From positions 1-64,000 of the forward strand of contig CATLTV010000002.1 in NCBI GenBank assembly GCA_950059285.1: a stretch of 64,000 bases of DNA. The letters are read 5' to 3'. The stretch is from an uncultured Pseudomonadota bacterium. GTDB lineage: Bacteria > Myxococcota_A > Bradymonadia > Bradymonadales > Bradymonadaceae. The stretch's first letter is position 1; each line of letters opens with the position of its first letter. Positions 4,339-55,571 of the stretch are shown here, piece by piece. The notes under the pieces were generated by a model. That model did not search any database, was not told where the DNA came from, and saw only the letters and a program-made list of their open reading frames with translations. Both the position numbers and the translations under genes were made by a program.

Positions 4339-6102
4339 ATGGAATACTACAAGGCACCTGTCAAAGACATGATGTACATGCTCAAGGCATTTCAATACAC
4401 CGAGCGCGTGCACTCCCTCGAGGCATTTGAAGGCTTTGATCTCAGCATGGTCGAGAGCCTCTTGCAGAGCGCCGCAGACATTGCCGTCAACGAGACACTT
4501 CCCCTGAACAGGCTTGGTGACGAGCATGGTATCAAGTGGGATCCCGAGACCTACGAGGTCACCACACCGCCTGGTTTCAAGGAAGCATACCAGAAGCTCA
4601 TCGACAACGGCCTTGTAGGCATGACCTGTGACCCCAACTACGGTGGTTCAGGTGGTCCCGAGGTGCTCGGCGTGTTGTTCAGCGAGCTTTCCACAGCCAC
4701 CAACAAGTCCTTCTCCATGTGTCCTGGTCTGACTCGCGGTCTGATTGATGCGCTCGCAGCGCACGGCACCGAGGAGCAGAAGCAGAAGTACATGACCAAG
4801 CTCATCAGCGGTGAGTGGACAGGTACAATGTGCTTGACCGAGCCCCAGTGTGGTACAGATCTTGGTTTGATCAACACCAAGGCAGTGCCTCAGGAAGATG
4901 GTACATACAAGCTGACAGGCACCAAGATCTGGATCACCTTTGGTGATCACGACATGGCCGAAAACATCATCCACCTTGTGCTTGCACGTTTGCCCGATGC
5001 TCCTGAAGGCATTAAGGGCATCAGCGCATTCATCGTGCCCAAGTTCATCGACGGTGAGCGCAACGCTGTGAACTGTACAGGTCTTGAACACAAGATGGGT
5101 ATCAAGGCATCACCCACATGTGTCATCGACTTTGAGGACGCCACAGGTTACCTCGTGGGCACACCTCACAAGGGTATGCGCTCCATGTTCGTGATGATGA
5201 ACGCTGCACGTCTTCACGTGGGTGTGGAAGGTATTGGTCTTGCAGAGATCGCGTACCAGACCGCGCTTGCATTCGCCAAGGATCGTCGTCAGTCACGCTC
5301 ACTTGACCCCGAGAAGAGCGATGCAAACGCACCTGCTGACAACATCCTCGTGCACCCTGATGTGCGCCGCATGTTGCTCAACATCAAGTCCACCAACGAG
5401 GCACTTCGCGCGCTCGCTGTCTGGATCTCCGTGGAATACGACATTGCCCATCATCACCCCGATGAAGAAGCTCGCCAGAAGGCCGACGACATCGTCGCGA
5501 TCCTGACCCCCATCATCAAGAGCTATGGCTCCGAGCGCAGCTTCCTGAACATCTCCGAAGCCATGCAGGTTTGTGGCGGCGCAGGTTACACCACTGACTG
5601 GAACATCGAGCAGTACCTTCGCGATGAGCGTATCGCCATGATTTACGAAGGCACAAACCACATCCAGGCGCTTGACCTCGTGGGTCGTAAGTTGCCAAAA
5701 GATGGTGGTCGCATGGTCCGCGCCTTTAGTGAAGTCATCACCGACATGATTCGCGCAGGCAAGGAGAACGAAGAGCTTGCCGAGTTCACCGACTACCTCA
5801 AGGAGCTCTCCAAGAAGCTTACTTCCGTGACCATGGAGCTTGCAGGCCAGGCGATGGCTGACCGCGAAGTTGCTGGTGCAGTGGCATCTCATTACCTGAA
5901 CCTCTTTGCACTCACCGCATTGACCTACGTCTGGTGTGTGCAGGTCAAGTACGCCATCGAGTCTGATGCACCTAACAAGGACACCAAGCTCAAAACCGCA
6001 CGTTACTTCATGCACAAGGTCTTCCCCGAGCACGAGACCCTTGTTCGCCAGATCAACACCTGGAAATCAAACCTCATGGAGTTTGATGTCGAGGAGCTCT
6101 AA
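4339..6102 (+). CDS. Acyl-CoA dehydrogenase (large, with extended N and C termini)
   Basis: A 587-aa FAD-dependent acyl-CoA dehydrogenase of the longer (~590-600 aa) class with an extra N-terminal segment. It catalyses the first, alpha-beta dehydrogenation step of fatty-acid beta-oxidation. The FAD/substrate signature is CLTEPQCGTDLG near residue 170, with KIWITFGDHD following. VCGGAGYTTDWNIEQYLRD near 410 and IYEGTNHIQALDL contain the expected catalytic base, Glu437. The start codon follows AAAGGA with suitable spacing; the nearby ATG at 4331 is out of frame. It is monocistronic, preceded by operator-like dyads and closed by a strong terminator, which suggests regulation by a fatty-acid-responsive repressor. 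Its chain-length preference cannot be read from the sequence. Confidence 0.95.
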   Translation: MEYYKAPVKDMMYMLKAFQYTERVHSLEAFEGFDLSMVESLLQSAADIAVNETLPLNRLGDEHGIKWDPETYEVTTPPGFKEAYQKLIDNGLVGMTCDPNYGGSGGPEVLGVLFSELSTATNKSFSMCPGLTRGLIDALAAHGTEEQKQKYMTKLISGEWTGTMCLTEPQCGTDLGLINTKAVPQEDGTYKLTGTKIWITFGDHDMAENIIHLVLARLPDAPEGIKGISAFIVPKFIDGERNAVNCTGLEHKMGIKASPTCVIDFEDATGYLVGTPHKGMRSMFVMMNAARLHVGVEGIGLAEIAYQTALAFAKDRRQSRSLDPEKSDANAPADNILVHPDVRRMLLNIKSTNEALRALAVWISVEYDIAHHHPDEEARQKADDIVAILTPIIKSYGSERSFLNISEAMQVCGGAGYTTDWNIEQYLRDERIAMIYEGTNHIQALDLVGRKLPKDGGRMVRAFSEVITDMIRAGKENEELAEFTDYLKELSKKLTSVTMELAGQAMADREVAGAVASHYLNLFALTALTYVWCVQVKYAIESDAPNKDTKLKTARYFMHKVFPEHETLVRQINTWKSNLMEFDVEEL

Positions 6103-6122
6103 GAATCATGTAAGTCATTCCA

Positions 6123-6188
6123 AATGACCCAAAGAAAGAAGGGGTGCGCTGCTACTTGGCAGCGCACCCCTTCTTTCTTTGGGTCATT
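6123..6188 (+). terminator. Intrinsic terminator after acyl-CoA dehydrogenase
   Basis: Two perfect 30-bp arms (6123-6152 and 6159-6188) enclose a 6-nt loop, TACTTG. The arms carry A-rich and T-rich outer halves, so termination could be bidirectional. It lies 20 nt after the dehydrogenase stop. Confidence 0.85.
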
Positions 6189-6372
6189 ATTTAAGTCCGA
6201 TAAGGCTAGTTATGTAAACTTATAAGAGTGTAACCGAGGAATGATCCCATTGATACAATGGTTTGAGTGACCGAGATGTTTCAACTGTCCTCTCGGGTTC
6301 TCCCTCCTACGCCCTGACCTGTTACCCAGAGAGGACTCTAGTATTTTTAAATCTCTTTCCAGGAGAAACCTA

Positions 6373-7299
6373 ATGCCTACAAGGTATCTAACTTTGGCTC
6401 GTATCGCTTGTCTTTTGCTAGGTTTCATTACTGGATGCAAAAGTGAGACTGAACCAGTAGTAACAACTACTTCTCCGGTGCCACCAGAGAGCATGATATT
6501 AAAACCTGGTGGCTCTAAGCCTGTTCATACATGGTCAAAAGTAAGAAACATTAAATTACTTGAAAAAAAATCGCTGACGACACTCCATCAATGGCTGGGT
6601 GTAAAGTTGACAGATGTAAAGCAGCTTGAGGAGTTAGGAGAGACAAAAAATGTAACGCGAGAATTTTGCGGTGATGATTGGATCTATTATGGTCGTATTT
6701 TTAGTGATCCCTGGCCATATCCTGATACAGATATGGCTATAGACTTATTGACATATAAAGACAATATAGAACTTATTATTATACAAATGACAACTTATAA
6801 TAAGTCAATATATCACGGACAATTGTCAATTGATGATAAATATAAATTTGAATGGACTTCATGTGCTCAAAATGATGCCTTACATGCACTGATTTGTGAT
6901 GATTATATGATAAGTGTCATGGATCGTAGTTACGGAATTATGCATTCATTAGATAATGATGAGATTAAAAATGTGAAAGAATTACTATCTTATCCTACAA
7001 ATTCAAGCGATTACACGGGGATAGCAAATCTTATCGGTGTCTATGAAAACGTAATTCTTATTTATAAAAAAGACCAACAAGAAAAGATTTTAAACTTATA
7101 TTTAAACTTTCATAGATATTATGAACCTAATTTTGAAGGTGCTCTGGATACTAATATAACAAAATTCCCCACGTATGCGCCAACAAGTTGTATCAGTACG
7201 TTATCGCGTTGGTACAGCACTAAACCTGGAGATGATTTTGGTACGATCTTCTATCGTCAGGATATATTAAGAAACAAACGAAAAAGTAAGCAATATTAA
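6373..7299 (+). CDS. Hypothetical lipoprotein
   Basis: A 308-aa protein with an N-terminal signal sequence and a lipobox ending FITGC, so it is probably a lipid-anchored envelope protein. The mature part is rich in Tyr, Asn, Lys and Ile, with no motif I recognise. AGGAG lies just upstream of the ATG. The base composition is clearly more AT-rich than the flanking metabolic genes, and the codons favour A/T endings, which suggests recent acquisition. A second lipoprotein follows within 45 nt on the same strand, and the two share the phrase KxRNIKLLEKK/SLT at the DNA level near 6548-6570 and 7279-7320 (AGAAACATTAAATTACTTGAAAA-like), hinting at a partial duplication between them. Function unknown. 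Confidence 0.8.
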   Translation: MPTRYLTLARIACLLLGFITGCKSETEPVVTTTSPVPPESMILKPGGSKPVHTWSKVRNIKLLEKKSLTTLHQWLGVKLTDVKQLEELGETKNVTREFCGDDWIYYGRIFSDPWPYPDTDMAIDLLTYKDNIELIIIQMTTYNKSIYHGQLSIDDKYKFEWTSCAQNDALHALICDDYMISVMDRSYGIMHSLDNDEIKNVKELLSYPTNSSDYTGIANLIGVYENVILIYKKDQQEKILNLYLNFHRYYEPNFEGALDTNITKFPTYAPTSCISTLSRWYSTKPGDDFGTIFYRQDILRNKRKSKQY

Positions 7300-8779: not shown

Positions 8780-8837
8780 CTCTCCTTTCTGAGTCCTTGA
8801 TTGATCCTGTCTCATCACTCCAGCGCCACTACATCCT

Positions 8838-9335
8838 ATGCAATACTCTGACGCTATTCCACAATGCGCAAAAAGTCTGTGCGTTTCTTGCCTTCTCCTC
8901 GTGGTCTTACTACCACACAATGGAATGACGCAACAAAGACCTTCTTCCTCGGAGCGCTCTCTTTATACCTCCACATCTGTCATGACTGTGCTCATGCTCT
9001 CTGCTGCTATCGCCTTTCAATATATAGATCAGGACAGCACACTTCATGTCATAAGCGTCACGTCTTCTTGCACGAGTGACCTCATCAACCTCTCGCTAAG
9101 CTCTTCACAAAGCCAGGCCCTCCTCTCCTATATCTCGCTTTATCCACACGACATCGCCATGGACCTCGCCATGCGCGGAGGACCACACCTCACCGAGCTC
9201 ATCAATCTCTTACCCCTGAATACACTCTCCCGAGCACATCTTGTGGATCACCACCTCTCCCCTCCTGATAAACTGATTGATGTGCTCTACAAGGGCTCTC
9301 CACAGGAGTTTTTAACGGCGCTCTTGCATCACTAA
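8838..9335 (+). CDS. Hypothetical protein with N-terminal hydrophobic segments
   Basis: A 165-aa open frame, divergent from the Cys-rich lipoprotein and convergent with the globin gene. It has a hydrophobic stretch (LCVSCLLLVVLLPHNG) and a second one (VMTVLMLSAAIAFQYI), then a soluble helical C-terminus (GGPHLTELINLLPLNTLSR). No ribosome site precedes the first ATG; later in-frame ATGs at 8925 or 8982 are possible. A sequence matching the DnaA-box consensus TTATCCACA lies inside the frame at 9140-9148, perhaps by chance. No family is recognised; coding potential is moderate. Confidence 0.5.
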   Translation: MQYSDAIPQCAKSLCVSCLLLVVLLPHNGMTQQRPSSSERSLYTSTSVMTVLMLSAAIAFQYIDQDSTLHVISVTSSCTSDLINLSLSSSQSQALLSYISLYPHDIAMDLAMRGGPHLTELINLLPLNTLSRAHLVDHHLSPPDKLIDVLYKGSPQEFLTALLHH

Positions 9336-9338
9336 ATA

Positions 9339-9737
9339 TTACTGCTCCTCGGGGACATTTCGCATGAAATCGGCCACCTGAGTAAAGCGTGCAGAGAGAT
9401 AATTATACACCTCCTCGGGCACCTCATTCTTCTTCATCGATGCATCCATACAACGCACCCAGGCGTCACGCATCTTGATGTTTACCTCCACATTTCTGTG
9501 GCGCATTCTCAACCTTGGATGCCCATACTGAGCCATGTATTCTTGCGGGCCACCAAGCCAACCCACCAGAAATAGTGCAAAACGATGGCGTACATCCGCC
9601 TCAATCAGCCCATCCTCGGTGCACTCGTGCAGGCGAGTAAGCTCGGGCTCCTCTTGCTCCATAATATCGTAAAAACTGTGTGCGATTTGCTCGACCTTGG
9701 CGCGACCGCCAAGGATGTCGTAGAGTGATGGCTCCAT
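9339..9737 (-). CDS. Truncated haemoglobin, group II (trHbO-like)
   Basis: A 132-aa protein matching the 2-on-2 globin fold. SLYDILGGRAKVEQIAHSFY forms the N-terminal helices, LVGWLGGPQEYMAQYGHPRL contains the group II signature Trp and Gly-Gly, and RMRH carries the proximal haem-ligand His. Such globins bind O2 or NO and are usually linked to redox or nitrosative stress. The ATG at 9737 is chosen because GAGGAT lies upstream and the globin fold begins there. The frame runs upstream to 9881, but that extension overlaps the first 29-bp repeat and has no globin similarity. The gene is convergent with 8838 and its promoter region borders the repeat array. Confidence 0.9.
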   Translation of the reverse strand: MEPSLYDILGGRAKVEQIAHSFYDIMEQEEPELTRLHECTEDGLIEADVRHRFALFLVGWLGGPQEYMAQYGHPRLRMRHRNVEVNIKMRDAWVRCMDASMKKNEVPEEVYNYLSARFTQVADFMRNVPEEQ

Positions 9738-9775
9738 AATTTTATCCTCGCTATGGACCTCTTCAAGGGTCTGGT

Positions 9776-10279
9776 TGCACGAAATGTAATAGCTATTCTG
9801 GATCAATTCCCCCGATCCAGAGGCCCACACAGTGACCGATTCACACCCTTTTGTCATCAGAAAGTCCCCAATTTGCACCAAACGTAACAGTTATTCTGGA
9901 TCAATTTCCCCAGGGCGTACATCCTTGTCACACGTCTTTTTGCACCAAACGTAATGGAAAACCTGGATCCATAATCCTTGCTCGCCAAACCTTCTTGCAC
10001 CAAACGTAACAGTTATTCTGGATCATATGCAGCCGTTACAACGTATGAACACGCATCAAATTTTGACGATTTTTAAATTTAAATAATTGATTTTAAAATG
10101 GTTTTTGCGAAATCTTATTATAAAATGGTGCACTTTCTTGCACGAGACGTAACAGTTATTCTGGATCACTAAAATCAGCGGCCAGGCTACAATTTGCACC
10201 AAACGTAACAGTTATTCTGGATCGCCAAACGGCGTTAAAAACGTTCACTTTGCACGAGACGTAACAGTTATTCTGGATC
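9776..10279 (+). repeat. Iteron-like direct repeats, block 1 (7 copies of a 29-bp unit)
   Basis: Copies start at 9776, 9874, 9941, 9996, 10139, 10195 and 10251, all in the same orientation. Each begins TGCAC, carries an R-Y-GTAA core and ends CTGGATC. Most have CAGTTATT between core and end. The copy at 9941 instead has TGGAAAAC, and the copy at 9776 is diverged (TAGCTATT). Start-to-start distances are 98, 67, 55, 143, 56 and 56 bp. An AT-rich stretch (about 10055-10130) separates copies 4 and 5. Confidence 0.92.
10055..10130. other. AT-rich segment, candidate DNA unwinding element
   Basis: This segment between repeats 4 and 5 is made almost only of A/T runs (for example TTTTTAAATTTAAATAATTG). 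A second AT-rich stretch lies at 10340-10400. In iteron origins such a segment is where the helix opens first; here that role is an inference from position. Confidence 0.45.
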
Positions 10280-10334
10280 GGCGTGCGCGCGATTTGTTGC
10301 GAACGCAACAAATCGCGCGCACGCCGATCCAGAA
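10271..10334. repeat. Hairpin 1 of the origin-like region (31-bp stem)
   Basis: Arms 10271-10301 and 10304-10334 are perfectly complementary with two unpaired A bases between them. The left arm begins inside the last bases of repeat 7 (TTCTGGATC), so the right arm ends with an inverted copy of that repeat end. Core is GC-rich (GCGTGCGCGCGA). Confidence 0.85.
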
Positions 10335-10402
10335 GATCACAATAACGTGTAGTAAAGTATTGATAATTCTAAAAATTTTTAAATATTTTGCGGTTTTTCT
10401 TA

Positions 10403-10454
10403 ACGCGAGAGCGATTTTTTATTTTCTCCGAAAAATAAAAAATCGCTCTCGCGT
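10403..10454. repeat. Hairpin 2 of the origin-like region (23-bp stem)
   Basis: Arms 10403-10425 and 10432-10454 pair perfectly around a 6-nt loop (CTCCGA). The stem combines a GC-rich base (ACGCGAGAGCG) with a T-tract, so a terminator function is also possible. Confidence 0.8.
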
Positions 10455-10459
10455 AACTC

Positions 10460-10494
10460 TTCTAGAAAGATCTCCTAAAGGAGATCTTCTAGAA
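10460..10494. repeat. Hairpin 3 of the origin-like region
   Basis: TTCTAGAAAGATCTCC pairs with GGAGATCTTCTAGAA across a 4-nt loop with one bulged base. It lies 6 bp after hairpin 2. Confidence 0.7.
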
Positions 10495-10583
10495 CAGATC
10501 TACTGGCGATCCAGAGCACTTTTTTGACAGGCCTCAAAGGCGCTATTTTACTGGCTGATCGGACATTCGTGAAAAACGCGCTC

Positions 10584-10905
10584 TGCACGAGACGTAACAG
10601 CAAACCTGGATCCGTGCACGAGACGTAACAGCAAACCTGGATCCGTGCACGAGACGTAACAGCAAACCTGGATCTGTGCACGAGACGTAACAGTTATTCT
10701 GGATCTTGCACGAAACGTAACAGTTAATTTTGACCTCTGCACCAGATGTAACAGTTATTCTGGATCAATTCAGCCCCTGGCCGATCACTACCCTGCACGA
10801 GACGTAACAGTTATTCTGGATCAATTCATACGTTTTGCACCAGATGTAACAGTTATTCTGGATCAACGGTTCACCTTGCACGAGACGTAACAGTTATTCT
10901 GGATC
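10584..10905 (+). repeat. Iteron-like direct repeats, block 2 (9 copies of a 29-bp unit)
   Basis: Copies start at 10584, 10615, 10646, 10677, 10707, 10738, 10794, 10836 and 10877, in the same orientation as block 1. The first six are spaced 30-31 bp, close to three helical turns, and the last ones 56, 42 and 41 bp. The first three carry CAGCAAAC instead of CAGTTATT; the copy at 10707 has a degenerate end (TTGACC instead of TGGATC). The block ends ~50 bp before the first open frame leading into the 644-aa initiator-like gene. Confidence 0.92.
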
Positions 10906-11220: not shown

Positions 11221-13106
11221 AGATGTTCTCTTTGCATGTCAAAGACTCGGAAGAATCTATGGAGAGTTCATATTATCTCAACCTTGCACGACGCATGACC
11301 GATTGGCCTCATGGCTTCAATCAACGTTCTCTCGTCAGGGTAACTCGCAAGGTCCTCAAGGACTTTGGCTCCTACGACCAGTGGATCGAGGCCATCCATA
11401 CGGGCGCCATCGACAAGCTCGAAGACGCCGAATATTCATGGGCTTACAAGATTATTCGCTCCTTTGTCAGCGAAGCCAGAAGGCCCGATCTTGATGAACC
11501 CGTGGAGCGTCGCACGATGGACCTCTACCTCGGTTTGCTCCGCGAATTAAGCGCCTCCAACGTGCGTCAGGAAGAGCGCTATCAGCGCGCCCAGAGCTTT
11601 GTGCTTGATAACCTCGAGGGATTCTCTGGCTGGGAGATCCTCGTCGCATCAAGCTCTGAATATCAGCTCGACGATCCTCGCCCATGGTGGAAACCTGGGG
11701 ACTTCTTCACCAACGAGGAGATGCGTCAGCACCTCATGACCAGCAAAAATGATGCGTCCAAGTCCAAGATCGCGGACATCCTTCAGGACAAGGGCTTTGC
11801 TCAGATCTCCAAGCCCCAGTACCTCGAGCGCATCCGACAGAACCTGATCAACTATCAGCTCCTCAAGACCAAGATCCTTGAACAACCTCTGGCCATCATG
11901 TTGCTCTACTGCACCCCCGCAAAGGAGAGAGGGCTTATCCCGAAGCTCCTTGGCACGCGTATGGAGGATCTCCAGATGCGCTGTGTGCAAGCGCTCCAGC
12001 GTCAGAACCCCACGGTTCCCATGTGGTCGCTTTACTCGCTGCCACGTGAAGCCAACAACATCTCAACGTTCTTCCTTGCTCGTGCAGATCAGCTGGAAGT
12101 GTCGGCCAGTGGAGATCTTATTCGCGGTCCTCTTGACCGCGCCAGAGTCAAGGTTCTTCAGGAAGATACAGGCCAACAAACGCTCTTCTTTGACACCGAT
12201 CTTGTCTCGGGAAAGGAGCGCAAGCGCGCAGATATCTTCATCTCCGTGGAGGTCGATCAGCGCCAACCTGATGCGATGGGTGCCCTGATGCGCGCCATCG
12301 AAAAATTCGACGTCGATCGTAATATTTTTGAGCACTTACCACGTGTCTGTGCAGGCATGTTTGCTGCCGCTCAACGCGATCGACGACTGCGCTTCAACTC
12401 ACCAGGTACGTTTTGGGACACGGACTCGGGCTATCGTGTGTGCCGCATTATTGGCTTTGATCCTGACAATCCCCGTCACCGCAAGCGTGTGCAGGATGCG
12501 CGTGATCTGCTTGAAAACTTCATCCTCCATCGCAAGGCCAAGGGCAGAGATGAAAAAGGCAGAAAGGTCGATGTCGAGTGGTGTGGTCCCATCATCGAAG
12601 CTCGTCGTGCACGAATCACCCTAACCGTTGAAGAGCGTGAAGGATTGAGCGCACGACATAACTTCCACTCCTGGTCCATCGCCGAGGAGCTCTGGAACAT
12701 GACCTTGCTTGAGGAAGAAGGTGGTACGCCTTCGTTCACAATCATTGATCAACGCGCCTTCGAACTGGATGCACGCACAAGCGCGCCCTTTAACATCTAC
12801 TGGACCCTGATTAACAGAGCTTATAACGACCGCATCGCCCCCGATGGAAGTTTTGAGGTGGGCCTGTGGACGCTCTATCTCTGGAGTGGTCTTGAGTCCA
12901 TCAATCCTCGCCCATTCAGAATTCGTGATCAGCTCCGCGAGGCTCTGGACCTGATGCTTGACCGTGGATTGTTGCTCTCTTGGGAATGCGCTCAACTCAG
13001 GCAAAATACGACCATGGATAATCTTCAAAAGGCTCGCCTGCGAGTTGTGTTCTCCGAACAACAACGCCATTCTTTGCCATTGAATCAAGCGCTTGTAAGA
13101 GTCTAA
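11172..13106 (+). CDS. Large DNA-binding protein, putative replication initiator (Rep-like)
   Basis: A 644-aa reading frame with no family I can name with certainty. The annotated start is a TTG at 11172; the first ATG is at 11223, and neither has a good ribosome site, which fits the idea that the true start lies upstream in a shifted frame. Much of the protein is helical and charged. The C-terminal ~150 residues (FNIYWTLINRAYND ... FEVGLWTLYLWSGL ... LREALDLMLDRGLL) look like a winged-helix domain of the type found in plasmid Rep proteins. Its position beside 16 iteron-like repeats supports an initiator role. That role is inferred from context and fold impression, not from a recognised motif. 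It is followed by a regulator gene 33 nt downstream. Confidence 0.6.
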   Translation: MPDATSTRTVRRPSLLKMFSLHVKDSEESMESSYYLNLARRMTDWPHGFNQRSLVRVTRKVLKDFGSYDQWIEAIHTGAIDKLEDAEYSWAYKIIRSFVSEARRPDLDEPVERRTMDLYLGLLRELSASNVRQEERYQRAQSFVLDNLEGFSGWEILVASSSEYQLDDPRPWWKPGDFFTNEEMRQHLMTSKNDASKSKIADILQDKGFAQISKPQYLERIRQNLINYQLLKTKILEQPLAIMLLYCTPAKERGLIPKLLGTRMEDLQMRCVQALQRQNPTVPMWSLYSLPREANNISTFFLARADQLEVSASGDLIRGPLDRARVKVLQEDTGQQTLFFDTDLVSGKERKRADIFISVEVDQRQPDAMGALMRAIEKFDVDRNIFEHLPRVCAGMFAAAQRDRRLRFNSPGTFWDTDSGYRVCRIIGFDPDNPRHRKRVQDARDLLENFILHRKAKGRDEKGRKVDVEWCGPIIEARRARITLTVEEREGLSARHNFHSWSIAEELWNMTLLEEEGGTPSFTIIDQRAFELDARTSAPFNIYWTLINRAYNDRIAPDGSFEVGLWTLYLWSGLESINPRPFRIRDQLREALDLMLDRGLLLSWECAQLRQNTTMDNLQKARLRVVFSEQQRHSLPLNQALVRV

Positions 13107-13139: not shown

Positions 13140-15539
13140 ATGTCATGTGATGAAAGTACATCAACATGGTTTGAGAAGATGAAGACAGAGCACATGGGCA
13201 ACACGTCATCGAGAAACGGGGACATTACAGAGCATCATGATATCTCGATAGAGGCAGACCTCATCGAACCGCTGATACAACAGCTTCAGGCATGTGACTT
13301 TGGTTGCGAGCGTTGGTCCAGTAACAGGACGCAGATGCTTGGCTACATGACTCCCGAGGCGCTCTTACTCAGGTTGCAAGAAGGTGAGACGACCTGCCAC
13401 GCAAATCATGCGTGCTCCTGTATCCTGAATATCATTCACACACTGGATTCATCTGCGCGGGCCGTGCTCTTTCACGGCGTGACGTTCCATACCTCGTTTA
13501 GTCTGGAGTTGATGGAGACGCTTCTTCGCGATGAAGAGGTCGACCTCTTTGATGGTTTGCATGAGCTTCAGGAGCACGGGCTGCTTCTGGTACAGCAGGA
13601 CTCACAGGGGGTGATGCATTGCTGTGTGAACAGGTTGGTGTATGCCGATATCACACGCTACGCCTCAATTTATAGCACTACATTTGGGGTTGATTTCACG
13701 CAGCTTTATCACAAGCACGCACGTCTGATGATAAGCCTGTTTGAAGATGACTGGAATACGTTTCAGTTCTTCATCGAGGATGATCCTGTGTATGACAGGA
13801 TGACACGATATACGTGGGATCTTGAGAACGCGTACCACAGGAGCGTCCAACACGAGTGGTCTCCTGAGGCGGGTTTCTTTGAAGAAGCGCTCGCCCTGAA
13901 TGCACTTCATGCAGGACAGTGGTCCAGAGCACATGAGTACACCACTGACTGGAGATGTGAGGATGAACACAAGGACGTGTTATTATCTCACAAGGCCCGA
14001 GCGTTGACATATCTGTTGATTGTCTCGCGATCGGACCGTCCTGGCCGAGGTTTGCAGCTTGGACGAGCCTGGCTTGACATGCTCGCCTCGGAGAAGCAAC
14101 AGGAGCATGTGTTGTTTCGGTTGACGTTGATTATTCAGGTCGCCGAAATTGCCTCTCATCTGGAAAATTTTGATGATATTGAGCCGCTGGTTGAACTTGG
14201 TCTGGAGTTATGTGACAGGCCCGCCTGGAACCATCAGAAAGCACGACTGTTGTTGATTTGTGGTTTGAAGAGCATCTATGAGCGTGATTGGCCAAGGGCA
14301 CAGGCGATGGTTCAGGAGGCGGAGCATCTCTTTGCGAGTCTTGAACAGCCACGTTATCTGGGGCTGTCATGTTACCACCTTGGGCATATCTATAAAAACC
14401 TCTGGCGAGAGGCCGAGGCGCTCAAAGCGTATGAGGACGCGTTGCTTTATGGTGGGAATGCAGGTGATACACGTGTGCTTGTGAACACCTACAGAGAGCT
14501 TGGTTGGATGTGGCTTGATAAGGTCGAGACCACAAAGGCGCTGGCGTGTGTGGAAGCGCTGGAGGAGCTAGCCAGGACACAACCGCGAAGCTCGATTCGA
14601 GGTGTGCAGTGCATGTTAAAGGGGCAGTTGTTGATGCAACAGGGTGTGGCCGATCAGGCGCTCGTGGAGCTTGAGACAGCCCGATGGCATCTTGCCGCAA
14701 GTCAGCAACAGTACTTGCTTGTGGCCGCGTTGTACTTTGAATTCCTGTGTTACTGGTCACTGGGACACTTGCCACAGGCGCAGGGTTATCTTGAGCTTGG
14801 CAAGGGTTTGAGCGAAGAGCTTACGAGTTTGATGGCCAGGACATGTTATGGATGTGCGACGATTGCATCACATGTCTGGGAGTCTCGTTATGAAGAGGCG
14901 GAGCAAGAGATTAAGGCCCTTGAGGATCTTCATCGCGCAAGTTTAAGCATTGGTTGGCTTGGATGTTTACTTGATGTACATCGCTACTATAAAGATCTTC
15001 ATAAATATTTGGATATAAAGAAGAAATCATCCAAAAAGGCGAGGGAGCTTGCGTCCGTACTCGTCAAGCAAGGCATCATATTACAGCTTCAGTATAACAA
15101 GGGTGGCGTGATCACCGAGTTTAATGGGGAGGTACGTTTTTGCTGGCGTATGATTCAGGCAAAGATCCCCGCAGAGTTAATGTCGATGATCGAGCTTGGT
15201 CTACTTGATCCATCCGGAGAGGCCCTGATTCTTGATCGAGGCCAGGGATTATTTCGCGCACCTGAGCAGGGTGTGTGGTGTGATATGAAACGACGCGTCA
15301 CACCATTCAAGTTATTATGCGCTCTGGTGGATCAGCATATCGAGTCACCAGGAGAGCCGATCGATCCTGCCGACCTGTTTGAAGCCGTGTGGCCAGGAGA
15401 GAGCATTCTTCAAGAGTCGGCCCAAAACCGTCTTTATGTGACGATGAACACGCTCCGCAAGGAGGGGCTAAAGGGCTACATTGTCAACTCCTCGGAAGGA
15501 TACTCGTTGCTTGAGAGCATGAGACTTATCGAGATTTGA
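13140..15539 (+). CDS. TPR-rich regulator with C-terminal winged-helix DNA-binding domain
   Basis: A 799-aa protein. Residues ~95-180 (AVLFHGVTFHTSFSLELME ... LHELQEHGLLLV) resemble the winged-helix segment that follows the NTPase in STAND-type regulators, but no Walker A motif is present. Residues ~230-620 are TPR-like helical repeats (CYHLGHIYKNLWREAEALK). The C-terminus, ~710-795, resembles an OmpR/PhoB-type winged helix (FKLLCALVDQ ... DLFEAVWPGE ... NRLYVTMNTLRKEG ... VNSSEGYSL). It is probably a cytoplasmic transcription factor whose TPR region senses a protein or ligand. The domain order is the reverse of classical SARP proteins, which carry the DNA-binding domain first. No ribosome site is obvious at the ATG. 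It lies 33 nt after the Rep-like gene and may be co-transcribed. Confidence 0.75.
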   Translation: MSCDESTSTWFEKMKTEHMGNTSSRNGDITEHHDISIEADLIEPLIQQLQACDFGCERWSSNRTQMLGYMTPEALLLRLQEGETTCHANHACSCILNIIHTLDSSARAVLFHGVTFHTSFSLELMETLLRDEEVDLFDGLHELQEHGLLLVQQDSQGVMHCCVNRLVYADITRYASIYSTTFGVDFTQLYHKHARLMISLFEDDWNTFQFFIEDDPVYDRMTRYTWDLENAYHRSVQHEWSPEAGFFEEALALNALHAGQWSRAHEYTTDWRCEDEHKDVLLSHKARALTYLLIVSRSDRPGRGLQLGRAWLDMLASEKQQEHVLFRLTLIIQVAEIASHLENFDDIEPLVELGLELCDRPAWNHQKARLLLICGLKSIYERDWPRAQAMVQEAEHLFASLEQPRYLGLSCYHLGHIYKNLWREAEALKAYEDALLYGGNAGDTRVLVNTYRELGWMWLDKVETTKALACVEALEELARTQPRSSIRGVQCMLKGQLLMQQGVADQALVELETARWHLAASQQQYLLVAALYFEFLCYWSLGHLPQAQGYLELGKGLSEELTSLMARTCYGCATIASHVWESRYEEAEQEIKALEDLHRASLSIGWLGCLLDVHRYYKDLHKYLDIKKKSSKKARELASVLVKQGIILQLQYNKGGVITEFNGEVRFCWRMIQAKIPAELMSMIELGLLDPSGEALILDRGQGLFRAPEQGVWCDMKRRVTPFKLLCALVDQHIESPGEPIDPADLFEAVWPGESILQESAQNRLYVTMNTLRKEGLKGYIVNSSEGYSLLESMRLIEI

Positions 15540-15857
15540 ACGGCTATCGATAGAATCTTCACCAGATAAGAACAAGATTTCACATGGTGGTGCTCTCTGG
15601 AGCAGAGGTTGGACTTATCGTTTAAAAAATTTCAACATGTCAGCCTGTGCGTTGTGTTTTCTTGGATAAAAGGTGAGCTTTTTGGGTGGGTGGAAAGAAA
15701 GAATTGACAGAGATTGTGACAAGGATGTAAAAATAATGTGTACGGTTCACATTATTTTCACAGCGAGATGCAGGTCGTTGTACAAGATGATGAAGCCTGG
15801 TTGTCACCATGAAAGAGTTCGTTTGCGAGAGCCTGCATTGCATCAAGAAGTTAAGTC
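15540..15857. promoter_or_regulatory. Promoter region with an operator-like dyad upstream of the HTH gene
   Basis: A -35 candidate TTGACA at 15704-15709 is followed, after 18 bp, by TAAAAA (15728-15733). Overlapping and following it is a perfect 11-bp inverted repeat, AAAATAATGTG / CACATTATTTT (15730-15740 and 15748-15758, spacer 7 nt). A repressor on this dyad would block the promoter, and autoregulation by the downstream HTH protein is the simplest guess. No gene is supported in the rest of the stretch. Confidence 0.55.
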
Positions 15858-16331
15858 ATGACATCATCCAAAAAAATGCCCCCATCCGTTATGAGTTCAC
15901 CTGATAATCAGGAAAAAGAAGTTTCCTCAGACAGTTACTCCAACTGGAGGGAGTACCGAAGGCAGCTTGCCTGGGATATGGTACAGCGAGGCATGGAGCA
16001 GAAGACAGTTGCAGAGCTGTTGGATGTGACACAAGCAGCGGTCTCTCAGTGGGTTAAGCGTGCGCGTGAGGAGGGCCGTGCTGCCCTTGAGGCGAAGCCC
16101 ACGCCTGAGCGAGCCAAGAAACTTGCCAAGGAACATGTAGATAAGCTCGTGGACTGGCTCTCTGAAGGTGCGCAGGCGCATGGATTTGGAGAGCGCTGGA
16201 CCACCTCAAGCGTGGCTGAACTTATCGAAAATCGCTTTGGTGTGGAGTATCACCCTGCACATGTCTCGAGGATGCTCAAGCAATGGGGTTTTGTGTGGGT
16301 GGGCATCTCGGGCTGGGTCGTGATGCAGTAA
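15858..16331 (+). CDS. Stand-alone IS630-type helix-turn-helix protein
   Basis: A 157-aa protein. After a polar N-terminus it has a helix-turn-helix (QKTVAELLDVTQAAVSQWVKR, residues ~50-70) and a second winged helix (SSVAELIENRFGVEYHPAHVSRML, ~118-141). This pair is what precedes the DDE catalytic domain in IS630/Tc1-type transposases. Here the frame ends 14 residues after the second helix, so no catalytic domain exists. It may be a domesticated regulator or a transposase remnant. No inverted terminal repeats or downstream DDE remnant are visible, which favours a regulator. The dyad upstream may be its operator. Confidence 0.8.
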   Translation: MTSSKKMPPSVMSSPDNQEKEVSSDSYSNWREYRRQLAWDMVQRGMEQKTVAELLDVTQAAVSQWVKRAREEGRAALEAKPTPERAKKLAKEHVDKLVDWLSEGAQAHGFGERWTTSSVAELIENRFGVEYHPAHVSRMLKQWGFVWVGISGWVVMQ

Positions 16332-54024: not shown

Positions 54025-55203
54025 TTATTCTGGCGGTGTACCCACAACGAGGTAGCGGGTGTCTTCATCGCCAAGTTGCTGGAGTAAATCCTCAGGACTT
54101 GCAGCGATGTGCGTGATGTCGTTTTGTCCGCGCGTCCAGACTGCGTAGACAACGAGTTCTTCGCCCACGACCACGTAAGATGGCCCGTAGACATCGCTGC
54201 GCTTGATCGAGGCGTGGAGCTGGATGGCACCTGTGAACGCGCGGCTTCCTGTGGGAGCCTGGAGCACGAGGAACCCGCCCATATCAAGGCGTTGCCTGAG
54301 CTGTCTGCCAAGGATAATCCAGTCTTCAATGGAATCAGGATGAGCGACGATGACACCAGCAGTGCCTTCAAAGTGTTCCAGACCTGCGAAGCTGATGACC
54401 TCGAGCTTGGGGGAGAACCTGGGCGCAGCCTGGCTTGTAGCACCAGCAGCTTTTGTGGGCTTGGAGGGTGTGATCTTGACCTTGACGGTCTTTTTGGCAG
54501 GCGCAGCCGCGGCTGTAGCGAGTGCTTTTGCGGGTGTGGCGGTGGGAAGAGGCTTGGAGAGCTCCTTTTTGACCTTCTTCTTGCGCTCTTCTTTTTGTTG
54601 TTTGAGGTACGCTCGCGCGCCGACCTTGTCGATATGATACTCATTACCCTGTGCATCAAGACGCACGTTCTGGGACTTGATCTCGCCGTCATCTTCGAGC
54701 GTGGAGCGGACCTTGCTGACAAATGGTCTTGAGACGGCACACATGACAGCGAGCTTGTTGTCCGAGAGTTTGATCCACTCGGGGTCCATGAGCGCGCGTG
54801 CGACAGCACGTCGCTTGTCGGCGTTGGTGCGTCTTAACCCGTGACGGGAGTTGGCAGACAGTGAGTAGCGAATGGCATCACGCAAGTCACCATCCTCGAT
54901 GTCGGCCTGAAAGTTTTTGATCTTGAGCCGACGAGCAGCTTCAAGACGGTGGAAACCATCAGCGAGCCAGAGCTTGTTGTTGTCGCGAAAGACCTTGATA
55001 GGTTCAAAGGGGCGTCCTTCGAGGTCCTCAACAGGTTGATCCTTGGAGGGCTTTTGCATGCGCTCCATGTATTCTTTGACGGTTGCCTGATCAAGCTCTG
55101 CACGTGGCTGTGTACGATCGTCGATGTTAACATCAGAGAGCTTGATGACATCCCAGCGTGGTCGCCTGGAGGAGGATGAATTTTTGCGAATCTTTACGGT
55201 CAT
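54025..55203 (-). CDS. ParB/Spo0J-like N-terminal domain protein
   Basis: A 392-aa protein with a ParB N-terminal nuclease-like domain at ~20-110 (LADGFHRLEAARRL replaces the usual GERRxRA box) and a helix-turn-helix at ~130-165 (DNKLAVMCAVSRPFVSKVRSTL). An Ala/Lys/Pro-rich linker (~210-260) leads to a C-terminal alpha/beta domain (~270-390; GFLVLQAPTGSRAFTGAI). It probably binds DNA. The DGFHR variant is common in solitary ParB-like regulators, not chromosome-partition ParB, and no parA gene or parS array is beside it. ATG at 55203 is chosen from family similarity; the ribosome site is weak. The gene is followed by a 13-bp dyad. Confidence 0.8.
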   Translation of the reverse strand: MTVKIRKNSSSSRRPRWDVIKLSDVNIDDRTQPRAELDQATVKEYMERMQKPSKDQPVEDLEGRPFEPIKVFRDNNKLWLADGFHRLEAARRLKIKNFQADIEDGDLRDAIRYSLSANSRHGLRRTNADKRRAVARALMDPEWIKLSDNKLAVMCAVSRPFVSKVRSTLEDDGEIKSQNVRLDAQGNEYHIDKVGARAYLKQQKEERKKKVKKELSKPLPTATPAKALATAAAAPAKKTVKVKITPSKPTKAAGATSQAAPRFSPKLEVISFAGLEHFEGTAGVIVAHPDSIEDWIILGRQLRQRLDMGGFLVLQAPTGSRAFTGAIQLHASIKRSDVYGPSYVVVGEELVVYAVWTRGQNDITHIAASPEDLLQQLGDEDTRYLVVGTPPE

Positions 55204-55571
55204 AGCAGCGTATACCTGAGGTGCTAAATAAGTATGTTTTATAATGCGATACAGCGGGTTTGTTGCAACCCTTGCCAAGGCATTCTGTGCGATATGCGCC
55301 TGTACAATGTGCATCACCCTGTGTGGGCGTTGCACGCGGCGCAATGGAAGTCATGAACACGACAAAATAGAAGAGATGGACTGATACATACAGAGTCTTG
55401 AAGGGTTCTTGGCCCTCGACATGGTGGATGTCGAGTCTGGCGCGACCTCTGCTCTGGTAATGCTAACCAGCATCATGAGTTAAAGCATGACGAGATAAGG
55501 CTCGTCAAGGTTCAGTCACGTTTATCTCTTTGAACTGAATGCATTCAACCCAGTCCAAACACTGTACAGAC
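55204..55571. other. Gene-free stretch between the ParB-like and UbiB-like genes
   Basis: Both flanking genes are on the minus strand, so this holds the ParB-like promoter and the end of the UbiB transcript. One dyad, CTCGACAT-5 nt-ATGTCGAG, lies near 55415-55435. No gene or RNA is supported. Confidence 0.4.

Follow-up and report, generated by a model that had tools for sequence, protein, structure and literature searches.

Described iterons are mostly 17–22 bp long and occur 2–7 times per origin, with longer units in a few plasmids (PMC4980987). For the Myxococcota, a 2024 account gives pMF1 and pSa001 as the only two plasmids or plasmid-bearing organisms of the phylum (PMC11705834), and among 284 Myxococcota genomes we found initiators of the Rep_3 type in none and of the RPA type in one. 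Here we describe a locus with an iteron-like layout in a window of 64,000 nucleotides, which is part of a 70.7-kb contig (CATLTV010000002.1, here C2) of a 6.65-Mb genome assembled in 441 contigs (G000). Sixteen long direct repeats in the window are very probably the replication start site of an extra, plasmid-like replicon, and we are confident, if short of certain, that the protein encoded beside them represents an undescribed family of initiators with iteron-type origins.

The array at positions 9776–10905 consists of sixteen direct copies of a 29-bp unit, TGCACGAGACGTAACAGTTATTCTGGATC, all on the plus strand. Seven of them form block 1 (9776–10279, with starts at 9776, 9874, 9941, 9996, 10139, 10195, and 10251) and nine form block 2 (10584–10905, with starts at 10584, 10615, 10646, 10677, 10707, 10738, 10794, 10836, and 10877), in which the units are spaced by 30–31, 41–42, or 56 bp. 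As the copies match the unit at 21–29 of 29 bases, against top scores of 20 in 50 shuffled windows and of 17 (plus strand) and 18 (minus strand) outside the array, the array cannot be attributed to chance. A scan of the 6.65-Mb genome with the pattern TGCACSARAYGTAACAG, allowing one mismatch, gave 15 matches, every one inside the array; the divergent copy at 9941 was missed by this pattern, and the reversed control pattern had no match in the same genome. Unit scoring, pattern scan, and shuffles agree with an earlier, sequence-only reading that had reported sixteen same-direction repeats in two blocks. Of the motif TGCAC...GTAA...CTGGATC that it ascribed to all copies, TGCAC and GTAA are present in 16 of 16 and CTGGATC in 15. 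The array is intergenic, lying between a divergent gene for a bacterial globin recognized by Pfam (ORF 9339–9881, minus strand, likely start around 9737) and the large gene of the initiator candidate.

Further elements are found among the units. A scan of the window for half-iterons gave 20 matches where 3.1 were expected; 14 of them fall within 9797–10905, and three of these 14 are inverted. One inverted half-iteron, on the minus strand at 9814–9821, reads GATCCAGA on the plus strand, the reverse complement of TCTGGATC; the other two, from the same scan, are at 10326–10333 and 10508–10515. The three are candidate dimer or regulatory sites. The most A+T-rich 60-bp stretch (10066–10125, 15% G+C) is inside block 1 and is a candidate for a DNA unwinding element; around 10345–10400 the sequence is again A+T-rich. 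A near-perfect palindrome with 33-bp arms and a 2-nt loop covers 10269–10336; the 3′ end of iteron 7 opens its left arm and recurs, inverted, in the right one. A hairpin with 25-bp arms and a CGCGAG/CTCGCG base, common to the five assembled origins of this genome, is located at 10401–10456, and 10 bp past it is the small palindrome AAGATCTCCTAAAGGAGATCTT (10467–10488). Folded as single-stranded DNA, the 251 bases from 10270 scored 16.8 standard deviations better than shuffles; an Rfam search gave no matches. The DnaA box TTATNCACA was not found near the window array with up to one mismatch. Such boxes are optional at iteron origins and not universal among iteron plasmids.

The proposed replication initiator is encoded on the plus strand at 11259–13106. 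Its start is probably ATG 11259, giving 615 aa, rather than TTG 11172, giving 644 aa, because the ATG is preceded by the better ribosome-binding site (GGAAGA) and lines up with the closest relatives. The sequence-only reading was right in placing the array upstream of a large unclassified protein, although the 644 aa it assigned should probably be 615 and a gap of 353 bp separates the array end from the ATG. Sequence searches of Pfam, NCBIfam, and the PDB found no relative of the protein, PHROGs gave only insignificant matches to proteins of unknown function, and plasmid, phage, and viral collections, searched with tblastn or by pattern scan, held no match. DUF5752 and similar weak Pfam matches were set aside, as each occurred in single family members only, and the downstream 799-aa gene (13140–15539) was dropped as a part of the module, not being conserved beside other copies.

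An AlphaFold2 model of the 615-aa protein, built with 12 sequences, had a pLDDT of 85 and a pTM of 0.75, and its secondary structure can be read as an all-helical N-terminal domain (residues 1–246) followed by two winged-helix-like domains (approximately 250–455 and 465–600). In a Foldseek search against the PDB, the top match was domains 2–3 of Vibrio RctB (E = 0.005, probability 1.00, TM 0.46 by target), and the rest was noise. With a second family member, modeled at pLDDT 83, the RctB match was not reproduced, the sole initiator-like match being a weak one, to a plasmid Rep WH1 domain (probability 0.38). We take the predicted fold as a pointer and not as proof. The only viral structure matching the initiator model at E < 0.001 was A0A8S5V5R6, an unnamed 584-aa phage protein of Myoviridae sp. 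ctrEx11 (E = 6e-6); going by its predicted fold, it may be a related initiator.

Besides the window copy, the genome encodes five paralogues at 38–52% identity, on contigs C12, C43, C74, C7, and C155, and six more copies were found in a second genome of the same taxonomic family, G007 (MAG CAJXPN01, “uncultured Myxococcales bacterium”). These two were the only initiator-bearing genomes among 57 of the class and among 379 in a sample of the phylum, and a scan of 84,980 species genomes, made with short peptide patterns that may miss distant relatives, matched solely on G007 contigs. In a tree of the 12 initiators, each genome forms one clade, both with support of 100/100, although the copies of one genome have diverged widely from one another. 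We conclude that the family radiated within each lineage; either lineage-internal duplication or a genus-wide plasmid pool would produce a tree of this shape, here from two genomes only.

The sequence-only reading had tied its case to repeats beside homologues of the 644-aa protein, and direct-repeat arrays indeed adjoin 11 of the 12 initiator genes, with a unit sequence private to each gene. The twelfth gene, on C7, ends around 38 bp from the contig end. In its nearest relative, C155, the array is found on that same side, and the C7 array may have been lost in an assembly gap. Oriented to the window, the units of C12, C43, and C74 are TGACAAAACGTGGCGGGAAATCTGGATC, AGGACAAAACGTAATAGCTTTTGTGGATC, and CTGCAAAAAAAGTAGCGGTTAATTCGATCGG, respectively. 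The units of C2, C12, and C43 are mutually related (18–21 matching bases, P value < 0.01 against shuffles), and those of C74 and C155 are related more weakly. In the related units, one half resembles ACGTA and the other GGATC, which would suit a protein with two DNA-reading domains. Unit length is 28–31 bp in the G000 arrays and 24–33 bp across the family, with 8–18 units per origin. The prevailing spacings of 30–34, 41–43, and 53–56 bp equal three, four, and five helical turns, and pooled phasing at approximately 10.5–11 bp was strong (Rayleigh P value ~1e-9, distinct spacings per array), the phasing in the window’s own array being weaker (R 0.34–0.66). Around its initiator gene, C155 (locus L037) also has an 8-bp unit, ATAACGTT with variants, in short tandem arrays at three places (5503–5590, 8807–8870, and 12102–12197); a further direct-repeat array lies at 6068–6440.

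The hairpin with the CGCGAG/CTCGCG base is present in all five assembled G000 origins, the rest of its stem differing each time; outside the window it is found at 14986–15019 on C12, 16493–16526 on C43, 10145–10200 on C74, and 11546–11588 on C155. In 650 kb of the genome we counted eight such hairpins, five of them in the five origins (~7.8 kb); the motif was picked after inspecting the origins, which makes the count post hoc, but the concentration is nonetheless very strong. A small palindrome follows the hairpin in three origins (window, C12, and C155). The hairpin is absent from the six G007 initiator contigs. We infer that it is read by a common host factor and the iterons by private initiators.

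A turn in GC skew coincides with the array on C12 and on C74 and falls close to it on C43. Cumulative skew on C12 is lowest at 15,149, eleven bases away from the array (15,160–15,853), and the skew is −0.12 on the left side and +0.085 on the right. For C43, the lowest point lies 1.75 kb away from the array (−0.07 left, +0.11 right), and for C74 the skew steps up from 0 to +0.16 there; the curve of C155 is ambiguous. Such curves are also shaped by gene orientation, and we regard the turns as support for the origin reading, not as proof.

Partition genes accompany many of the initiators. A ParA followed by a ParB-like protein is encoded on C12, C43, and C74 and on C154 and C20 of G007, most of the ParA proteins having an N-terminal HTH; C152 has a ParA and C229 a ParB-like protein. 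The ParB-like family is not recognized by Pfam. A profile search found six copies in G007, four in G000, and none in six relatives lacking the initiator. Its members, found mostly beside ParA and with the motif WxADGFHR, include those at L032 4569–5657, L043 5515–6846, L029 6976–8187, L034 4644–5912, and, in the window, at 54025–55344 (minus strand, 439 aa); they are possibly a partition family of their own. Chromosomal-type ParB_N, with a single match each in G000 and G007, was rejected as a partner: genomes with and without the initiator have one match each, and it is unlinked. Beyond the ParA genes with clear counterparts in relatives, G007 has six, and three of its contigs with ParA/ParB-like genes and no initiator (C85, C424, and C838) were not accepted as replicons of the family, having no known array. 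C43 additionally encodes a DnaG-like primase, an AAA_25 ATPase of a helicase-like class, and a tyrosine recombinase. The proposal of an iteron origin, made from the letters of the window, is strongly supported by the private arrays, by the partition and replication genes, and by the skew turns on C12, C74, and near C43; the skew of the window itself speaks against it.

The window copy is where a competing account fares best. The family would be an origin module, but this copy, having arrived on a plasmid, would now be integrated into the chromosome and silent or conditional. This account bears on what the window copy is today and leaves the nature of the family as it is, and so it overlaps our preferred explanation; we give it a substantial minority share of our belief. 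A GC-skew switch near 10 kb, for which the earlier reading had suggested looking, is absent from the cumulative skew of the window (−0.043 left and −0.033 right of the array), and no ParA was found on the 70.7-kb contig, as on C7 and C155 of the same genome. The genes around the array are of chromosome type (Tex, an SNF2 helicase, an ABC1 kinase, and a PKS/PUFA cluster), the ParB-like gene, of the family adjoining ParA on other initiator contigs, is 41 kb off and without a partner, and the composition of the contig is near that of the others. On the other hand, the initiator ORF is intact, nearly all iterons are well preserved, the hairpin is retained, and the ParB-like gene is on the same contig as the array. 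Chromids, too, have an ameliorated composition and chromosome-type genes. The missing skew switch and ParA weaken the case for a free replicon, whereas it is favored by an initiator gene and array that are both intact and by the ParB-like gene, and we lean mildly toward the contig being a free replicon today. Both genomes are fragmented assemblies, and a check of contigs for circularity found no overlapping ends. Several G007 contigs (L039–L043) end in CTGTCTCTTATACACATCT-type sequence resembling untrimmed Nextera adapter, an artefact of the assembly. As a separate observation, the PKS/PUFA-synthase-like cluster (16561–40011) encodes a PfaD-like protein (FabD helical insert and NMO), a 2242-aa KS-AT-ACP-KR-DH protein, a 3136-aa ORF, and a 1661-aa fusion of biotin carboxylase and carboxyltransferase; the N-terminal HTH part of an IS630-type transposase, 157 aa and apparently a fragment, is found at 15858–16331.

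Iteron-like arrays are also found in partition sites and operators, and ParA-like genes are near several of the arrays described here. Could the arrays be operators or centromeres and the 615-aa protein a regulator or partition adaptor binding them? We consider this improbable. Of the eleven arrays, nine are upstream of the gene and two, those of C74 and C155, downstream, so that the arrays are not simply operators of the gene. The protein is retained where ParA is not present, and the partition genes, where found, form a separate ParA/ParB-like set. The skew turns at arrays, the primase and helicase-like genes of C43, and a winged-helix tandem whose top fold match is an initiator likewise fit a regulator or adaptor poorly. 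Slightly less probable still is that the six copies are plasmids of other organisms placed in a metagenome bin: G000, in 441 contigs, is probably a metagenome-assembled genome, but two genomes of differing GC (~0.50 and ~0.66 on initiator contigs) have six copies each in one clade per genome (100/100), the composition of the initiator contigs fits the host, and the estimated contamination is 0.95%.

Returning to the reading of the family as initiators with their own iteron origins, we infer DNA binding, melting, and autonomous replication by initiator and array. The initiator would bind the 29-bp units via its two winged-helix domains, one on the ACGTA half and the other on the TGGATC half, stack cooperatively along the helically phased units, and melt the A+T-rich DNA between them. 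It would then recruit helicase and primase, perhaps aided by the CGCGAG hairpin, and the inverted half-sites and surplus units could serve autorepression and copy control. A module of this kind, with a differing repeat each time, is present six times in G000 and six times in G007, on contigs often carrying ParA/ParB-like genes. A wider scenario, which we rate a little below even, is that the lineage has its genome split over at least six secondary replicons sharing one cell, each going back through duplication to the same ancestral iteron plasmid; with initiator and iterons diverging together, each new copy would escape incompatibility, and the common hairpin, read by the host replication machinery, would stay fixed. 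If true, a private initiator family with six distinct co-resident iteron systems would help to explain plasmids missed by known Rep families, could provide vectors for a phylum in which these are scarce, and would be a natural series for testing how initiator and iterons change specificity jointly, letting related replicons share one cell.

Among described systems, RctB and ori2 of Vibrio chromosome 2 resemble the window locus in the large initiator (615 vs. 658 aa) whose two winged-helix domains are preceded by an additional N-terminal one, in the top fold match to RctB domains 2–3 (with one model, not the second), in the origin beside the gene, and in GATC within most units of four G000 arrays. 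RctB has a domain IV (residues 532–658; PMC11711613), for which there is no counterpart, our model ending approximately 15 residues past the second winged-helix domain; the G000 units are 28–31 bp and not Dam-dependent 11/12-mers; and a profile search of all PDB chains, RctB domains included, did not find RctB. A gene for D12-class Dam (MethyltransfD12) was found neither in G000 nor in four related genomes, and Dam-type control via GATC was dropped for this reason. Membership in the RctB family was likewise dropped, as the fold match was not replicated and both domain IV and D12-class Dam are lacking. The iteron plasmids F/RepE, R6K/pi, RK2/TrfA, and P1/RepA share with the locus one-orientation direct repeats beside the initiator gene, an A+T-rich stretch, inverted half-sites, helical phasing, partition genes, and the proposed winged-helix pair. 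The family differs from them in its 24–33-bp units, at least three helical turns apart and 8–18 per origin, in an initiator more than twice the length of RepE, and in that no DnaA box was found at the window array. None of the 12 family members matched Rep_3 (PF01051) or RPA (PF10134) at E up to 1, and hhalign comparisons with RepE and with an RPA protein gave nothing. With the Myxococcota plasmids pMF1 and pSa001, the replicons proposed here would share the phylum and an extrachromosomal existence.
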